From a virus, in the IMG/VR virus record IMGVR_UViG_3300030104_004642, positions 1 to 64,000 of that record: a stretch of 64,000 nucleotides of DNA, one strand, 5' to 3'. Below are positions 13,918 through 17,168 of this stretch, piece after piece (the stretch's first letter is position 1; the number at the start of each line of letters is the position of its first letter). The notes under the pieces are model-generated. The model ran no database searches. It was not told where the DNA came from and saw nothing but the letters and a program-made list of their open reading frames with translations. The position numbers were made by a program, and so were the translations under genes.

Positions 13918-14481
13918 TCACTTGTCTTCAATAAACCAATCAATACCCTCCCTACTTGCTAGTTTATCCACATCATGAGGATCCATCTCACCCTTTGGCA
14001 AATAAGCAAGTTCTCTCAAAGCATATACTGATGGATCCATAGTAACACTCGTGGGTAATCTACCTAGTGCCACATTATCAAAGTTAAGTTGATGCCTATC
14101 AAATGTAGAGAGTTCATATTCTTCTGTGTGTGATAGACAGTTTGTTGGGCAGTATTCCACACAGTTTCCACAGAATATACAAACCCCAAAATCTATAGAA
14201 TAGTTTCTTAACTCCTTCTTCTTGCTCTTCTTATTCATCACCCAATCAACCACTGGAAGGTTGATTGGACAGACACGAACACAAACCTCACAGGCAATAC
14301 ACTTATCAAACTCATAGTGTATTCTTCCCCTATATCTTTCAGAGGGTATTAGTTTCTCATAGGGATACTGGACAGTGATGGGTCTCCTTTTCATATGATC
14401 AAAGGTGACTGACATCCCCTGAGCCATATATTTGGCAGTATTAACTACCTCTTTTAAGTATCCAAAGATTGAGTTTCCCAT
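13918..14481 (-). CDS. ndhI: NAD(P)H-quinone oxidoreductase subunit I (NdhI)
   Basis: 187 residues with both [4Fe-4S] motifs intact: C61-x2-C64-x2-C67-x3-C71P and C101-x2-C104-x2-C107-x3-C111P. Cyanobacterial NdhI landmarks are present throughout ([39 protein letters not shown]). NdhI is the ferredoxin-like arm subunit of NDH-1, which feeds electrons from ferredoxin to plastoquinone in cyclic electron flow and respiration. The phage copy looks full length and functional, with its own C-terminal tail (GIDWFIEDK). It is preceded by a terminator and no obvious promoter was found. Confidence 0.95.
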
Positions 14482-15272: not shown

Positions 15273-15446
15273 TCAGGATGCCTCGTTGTTCTGTTCCAGA
15301 TATAACTTCATTATATCATCATCTGCTGGCATCATCACTGCCCTTTCACCACTCTCGTTTTCCACACCTATTGTCTCTCCCTTCTCAACCCTTTCAAGGA
15401 GTTGTTCCCAATTCTTCTGCCAATGTTCCACAGAATAAAATTCCAT
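15273..15446 (-). CDS. Small Phd/YefM-antitoxin-like protein
   Basis: 57 residues. The segment WEQLLERVEKGETIGVENESGERAV follows the Phd/YefM pattern: a helix, a 'GE' turn, a beta strand, then a 'G-x-x-A-V' strand and a following Pro. Phd-type proteins bind DNA and neutralise a toxin. No toxin gene is next to it; the stop abuts the tRNA-Ile gene. It could neutralise a host toxin or be a simple transcription factor. The call rests on a short pattern. Confidence 0.5.
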   Translation of the reverse strand: MEFYSVEHWQKNWEQLLERVEKGETIGVENESGERAVMMPADDDIMKLYLEQNNEAS

Positions 15447-16904: not shown

Positions 16905-17168
16905 TGTAGAATAGGTAACCAAGAGGTGTTTAGTTAAGGATTTCCCCAATCTATTCCTCTTGGTTGGTTTGGGTGGGTAGAGGGATTTACTTTTCACCCT
17001 CAACAAGATGGTCTCACTAGTAAGATAGTGATCTTGTTCTTTTCAGTCCTCTTGGTTAGAGTTCTGTGTCACCACAGCGGGCACCACCCCTGACTTACTT
17101 CACCATTACAGAGTGCATGACCACATCTGTTTTTCTGGCATACCCTAAGGAGAATGATCAGTTCTCCA
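16905..17168 (-). ncRNA. Structured noncoding stretch, candidate RNA
   Basis: About 260 bases with no convincing reading frame but several strong stem-loops on the minus strand: GGAGAA/TTCTCC (17149-17167), CTGTG-GTGA-CACAG with a GNRA loop (17064-17077), and a 13-bp two-part stem AACAAGAT+CACTA (17002-17038). A 10-mer, AACCAAGAGG, occurs twice (17048-17057, 16956-16965) and once inverted (16917-16926), so two alternative pairings are possible. It lies between tRNA-Arg and a coding gene on a transcript expected from the promoter at 17316. It is not a tRNA, and I do not recognise tmRNA or RNase P. Confidence 0.5.

Follow-up and report, generated by a model that had tools for sequence, protein, structure and literature searches.

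A manA RNA one base behind a tRNA in a viral genome, and the predicted 5' ends of its relatives

What is the structured stretch that separates a tRNA-Arg gene from the next gene in this viral DNA, and how would such an RNA act? In the window, meaning the whole 64,000-nucleotide stretch that was analysed, an earlier sequence-only reading had described a noncoding region at positions 16905-17168 with strong stems, a GNRA loop and a repeated 10-mer, and had likened it to no RNA family that it could name. The structured stretch is in fact a known RNA family, manA of the cyanophage type. An Infernal/Rfam comparison, which that reading had proposed as a check, was made with Rfam 15 on both strands, and it matches minus-strand positions 17167-16970 to manA (RF01745) well above the cut-off (87.6 bits against 55.2, E 5.5e-21) and over the full length of the model (positions 1-192 of 192). 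This is the sole strong match in 16905-17168 other than tRNAs; at the gathering threshold, the matches in the window are limited to manA and tRNA families, and the 115-kb virus record holds a single manA copy.

Weinberg et al. (2010, PMC2864571) reported the manA family in marine metagenomes, cyanophages and two gamma-proteobacteria, and classed it as cis-regulatory and possibly a riboswitch. The window copy has the same multistem fold and the same conserved GGUGGUGC and UAACCA stretches and, as in the family description, is carried by a T4-like cyanophage (PMC2864571). It departs from that description in starting one base after a tRNA rather than at a promoter, and in having a DUF7212 gene behind it. 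The scores of relatives reach 184.9 bits. The window copy belongs to a tRNA-fused subtype that is divergent (87.6 bits, where three copies of the other subtype score 168-185).

All elements of the locus lie on the minus strand. The tRNA-Arg(UCU) gene (17242-17169) encodes no CCA, and its 3' end abuts manA (16970-17167, supported by Rfam score and covariation): the two Rfam matches lie 1-2 nt apart, with one base between the tRNA 3' end and the manA start. The next ORF (16899-16657, 80 aa, DUF7212, PF23848, phrog_741) follows the tRNA after a gap of about 270 nt and begins 75 nt past the outer stem of manA, which places manA in a potential 5' UTR with a tRNA preceding it. The neighbouring genes, among them ribonucleotide reductase-like ORFs and purC, and the relatives of the DUF7212 protein, 377 of 377 of which come from cyanophage records, fit a T4-like cyanophage. 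An early-type promoter had been called perfect; a sigma70-type promoter (TTGACA-17-TATAGT, 17344-17316) does lie upstream, with a consensus match of 11/12, but it stands ahead of the tRNA-Arg and not directly before the RNA. TTGACA/TATRNT sites number six in the window versus 0.6 expected, and by consensus matching comparable promoters precede most tRNA-manA relatives. The putative promoter is inferred to start a tRNA-manA transcript. Elsewhere in the window, we noted a Phd-like antitoxin ORF (phrog_375, 15273-15446, minus strand) and, by eye, an ORF with two 4Fe-4S-type cysteine clusters (13918-14481, minus strand) that resembles NdhI of the cyanobacterial NDH-1 and is a possible auxiliary metabolic gene.

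Folding of the region gave a stable structure on the minus strand (-82.9 kcal/mol, z = -3.07) and a weaker one on the plus strand (z = -2.06). The strong stems and the GNRA loop are indeed present on the minus strand, where both belong to the manA fold. The RNA opens with a 5' hairpin (GGAGAA-CUGAUCA-UUCUCC, 17149-17167), whose first paired base lies one nt after the tRNA. Behind it, the outer stem (helix 1 of the covariation count) is formed by a 5' arm GGGUA (17141-17145) and a 3' arm UACCC (16975-16979, paired as 16979-16975). Inside lie a hairpin of the GNRA type, so typed by sequence (CUGUG-GUGA-CACAG, 17064-17077, helix 4), and a contact between UGGU within the conserved GGUGGUGC (17083-17086) and ACCA of the conserved UAACCA loop (17053-17056), which pair as 17086-17083 with 17056-17053 (helix 3).

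Two 17-base seeds lying in the conserved core served to gather relatives, in place of a looser first viral pattern whose matches were mostly due to chance; the resulting set is biased to the two subtypes that the seeds describe. With the outer stem required, there were at least 177 matches, at least 123 of them distinct, and many near-copies inflate these counts. Among bacterial genome contigs, 78 match the 17-base seed and two of these also keep a UAACCA-like stretch; none was confirmed as a manA copy and most are chance matches.

The covariation check proposed for aligned relatives strongly supports the consensus fold. In an alignment of 19 manA sequences, mutually at most 88% identical, the RNAalifold consensus holds 30 pairs, of which 17 are changed on both sides, including three of the five in the outer stem; 96.3% of cells are paired. 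The covariation score is 0.531, as compared with 0.07-0.12 (maximum 0.116) for slid partners and 0.151 for shuffles. This bears out the earlier call of a structured noncoding RNA. The UGGU/ACCA helix is paired in 19 of 19 sequences yet almost invariant, and is compatible with the fold; RNAalifold nests it within helix 2, and it was bracketed apart solely for counting. Weinberg et al. marked a possible pseudoknot of manA with a question mark (PMC2864571). The core also holds conserved unpaired bases in the 19-sequence alignment.

The position of the 5' hairpin next to the tRNA raises the question of where manA begins in general. For each distinct locus, the 5' hairpin was found by a simple stem search and its distance to the upstream element was taken, which was possible in 121 of the 123 distinct loci among the matches listed, the other two being too near a contig end. 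A tRNA directly precedes manA in 25 of these 121 listed loci (Arg-UCU 19, Gly-UCC 4, Asn-GUU 2), and in 24 of the 25 the first paired base falls 0-1 nt past the tRNA, the exception being a hairpin call that runs into the tRNA. The 96 non-tRNA loci among the matches listed are of another kind: in 94, a sigma70-type promoter scores 9/12 or better, and its -10 box ends 4-6 nt ahead of the hairpin in 88 and 7 nt ahead in two. A score of 9/12 is reached at 2.8% of random sites in the same loci, and never at that place in the tRNA-type loci. As for the two loci left, in one (L229) the Rfam coordinates put a tRNA one base ahead of manA, and in the other (L220) the hairpin was mis-called and a promoter is visible by eye. 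Weak ARAGORN calls ('tRNA-Pyl' and others) upstream of promoter-type manA were, by judgement, treated as false. In a control family, wcaG, inspected by eye, a promoter was flush at the 5' end in neither of two loci, too small a number to count.

A predicted flush 5' end thus holds either way: across the relatives examined, manA is predicted to begin where a promoter starts transcription or where a tRNA ends. This predicted anatomy of the 5' end seems to be new for the family. A quick manA tree, with many weak branches and with clusters of near-copies, needs four changes between the tRNA-fused and the promoter-fused state, at least two of them forced by well-supported branches; the two kinds of manA are not cleanly separated on it.

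Cultured phages show the same siting. In S-B43 and RN05-S, the order is tRNA-Arg, manA, tRNA-Thr, tRNA-Ala and DUF7212, and the Rfam matches around manA lie 1-2 nt apart. In the deposited annotation of S-CREM1 (OP535465), manA is flush between tRNA-Leu and tRNA-Asn. This copy is like that of the window in lying directly behind a tRNA, here tRNA-Leu, with a flush 5' hairpin, and unlike it in having a tRNA (Asn) rather than a gene directly behind (PMC9964418, OP535465); it is annotated as cis-regulatory, and its siting between tRNAs is not discussed in the sections of the article on which we draw (PMC9964418). S-SCSM1 has a tRNA-Arg 97% identical to that of the window, followed directly by the DUF7212 gene, without manA.

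Taken by sequence alone, manA is most simply read as an element that works at the 5' end of an RNA, because the predicted ends leave 0-1 unpaired bases before the first stem. 5'-terminal stem-loops that stabilise bacterial mRNAs are established, and protection against 5'-end-dependent decay is their established role (ompA and others; literature cited in PMC3997798). The predicted anatomy of manA, a hairpin with 0-1 unpaired 5' bases, resembles that of such stem-loops as the E. coli ompA leader (cited in PMC3997798); unlike that leader, manA is about 200 nt long, contains an invariant core and may be joined to tRNAs.

From the family assignment, the fold, the predicted flush ends and the contexts of manA, we infer processing, protection and binding as follows. 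Transcription would begin at the promoter that precedes the tRNA and extend across tRNA-Arg, manA and the DUF7212 gene. RNase Z or an equivalent would cut the tRNA 3' end and leave an RNA that opens with the 5' hairpin of manA; most relatives would instead obtain an equally flush 5' end by starting transcription at the hairpin. The flush hairpin and the compact fold may then shield the linked RNA from RNase E 5'-end-dependent decay during infection, this RNA being the DUF7212 mRNA here, and tRNAs, gp32, talC and petE elsewhere. The invariance of the core calls for a binding partner, and the nearly invariant stretches (GGUGGUGC, UAACCA) probably bind a ligand or a protein that would tune the protection. 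To the proposal that manA is such a 5'-terminal module, freed by tRNA processing or started by a promoter, with a flush hairpin protecting the RNA behind it, we would give an even chance.

A wider formulation is held somewhat more tentatively: manA may be a portable module of cyanophages that always sits where an RNA begins, whether a promoter or the processing of a tRNA 3' end creates that 5' end, that is freed in tRNA arrays and that is not primarily a metabolite switch for one gene. If true, phages would use a portable 5'-terminal manA to protect or mark RNAs in the course of infection. The 5'-end rule narrows the possible functions of manA, a riboswitch candidate left an orphan since 2010; it points to three phages in culture (S-CREM1, S-B43 and RN05-S) and predicts a discrete RNA 5' end. 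Sensing may still be the main function of manA, because a conserved fold of about 200 nt with invariant unpaired bases exceeds what protection needs.

Two other explanations are serious rivals. In the first, which follows the proposal of Weinberg et al. (2010), manA is a classical riboswitch-type cis element: placed in the 5' UTR, it would sense a metabolite and regulate how the next gene is translated. An ATG 11-50 nt after manA in most distinct loci among the matches listed agrees with this, as do the conserved unpaired core, the listing of manA as cis-regulatory and a possible riboswitch (PMC2864571), and metabolic genes such as talC, petE, manA and 2OG-Fe(II) oxygenase behind it. The whole range of genes behind manA is very diverse, however, with gp32, a pyrimidine-dimer glycosylase, a mannose-6-phosphate isomerase domain and DUF6561 among them, and in 20 of the 123 distinct loci among the matches listed it is a tRNA that starts within 30 nt past the outer stem. 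Moreover, the same gene types may sit behind manA directly or past a tRNA: DUF6561 follows at once in L136 and L164 and after an interposed tRNA in L126, L140 and L165, and DUF7212 at once in L162 and L182 and after a tRNA in L152 and L189. At the window locus, no terminator-like element was found. We consider this explanation unlikely, although it is the strongest of the alternatives to a 5'-terminal module. As a separate observation, a tRNA-Gly lies between manA and the same DUF6561 (weakly Sm-like) gene in L126, L140, L165 and L185 and is missing in L136, L164 and L217; manA and the DUF6561 gene therefore stay together while the spacer changes.

In the second, manA is a free RNA of tRNA arrays, trans-acting or structural, which RNase Z and RNase P would excise; the next gene is then incidental. 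The flush tRNA-manA-tRNA order of S-B43, RN05-S and S-CREM1 recurs in six distinct metagenomic loci (of the 123, among the matches listed), and the diversity of downstream genes would suit this explanation as well. Where manA is flush between two tRNAs, RNase P should release it, and it would then protect no downstream mRNA. Most loci among the matches listed nevertheless read promoter, manA, gene, with a short spacer and with no processing site seen, and we regard a free RNA as less likely again than a riboswitch. GOLLD and ROOL RNAs are associated with tRNA clusters. They are likewise large structured phage RNAs (PMC12286853), but no relation to the window RNA was detected with Rfam at the gathering threshold.

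A third explanation comes from the 10-mer AACCAAGAGG, whose inverted copy had been thought to pair with either of two direct copies as in a switch. The repeat itself is as described, twice direct and once inverted: the three copies in the 64-kb window all lie here (17057-17048 and 16965-16956, both minus strand, and inverted 16917-16926), where chance would give 0.26, and none of 2000 shuffles of the region combined a direct repeat of at least 10 with an inverted one of at least that length. The first copy (UAACCAAGAGG with flank, 17047-17058, minus strand) sits in the UAACCA hairpin of manA and includes the conserved loop, so that pairing there would break the UGGU/ACCA contact; the second (16965-16956) and the inverted copy (16926-16917) form a lineage-specific hairpin before the ORF (16917-16965, minus strand). 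An inverted copy that toggles between these two partners, and so controls the downstream gene, is nonetheless very improbable. In a pseudoknot-free model, the local 10-bp hairpin has a pair probability of about 1 and the pairing with the manA copy one of about 4e-5; forcing the latter raises the minimum energy by 7.3 kcal/mol and the ensemble energy by 6.3. Among 118 loci of the matches listed, complementarity of more than 8 nt between the manA segment and the following 120 nt occurs in two, the window and L095. The downstream hairpin is absent from the close relatives L162, L182, L040, L152 and L192; in L182, a manA 99% identical to that of the window is followed straight by a DUF7212-like ORF, and in L040 tRNA-Thr follows manA. 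As an expression platform the alternative pairing is energetically disfavoured and not conserved among manA relatives, and because of this and of the missing hairpin in close relatives the switch is rejected.

Two short ORFs of 36 and 42 aa do overlap the region, but a short protein with incidental structure is practically negligible as an explanation and is rejected by the pair-preserving changes across 19 relatives, with loop-length changes in the alignment and the full-length Rfam match also against it.

The downstream hairpin is probably a real, separate RNA hairpin, because the changes in its inner stem between the window and L095, compared by eye, keep the pairing. Within the viral collection, two other contigs show its pattern. 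One of them, L095, is a near-identical locus and the sole other that bears manA; in L380, spacing and context differ, and the stretch looks unrelated. The 11-mer that the UAACCA hairpin of manA has in common with the arms of this downstream hairpin (16917-16965, minus strand) is non-random. Another strong hairpin, with a CCACC-rich loop, was seen between tRNA-Thr and the next element in the tRNA-manA loci L152, L156, L158 and L192.
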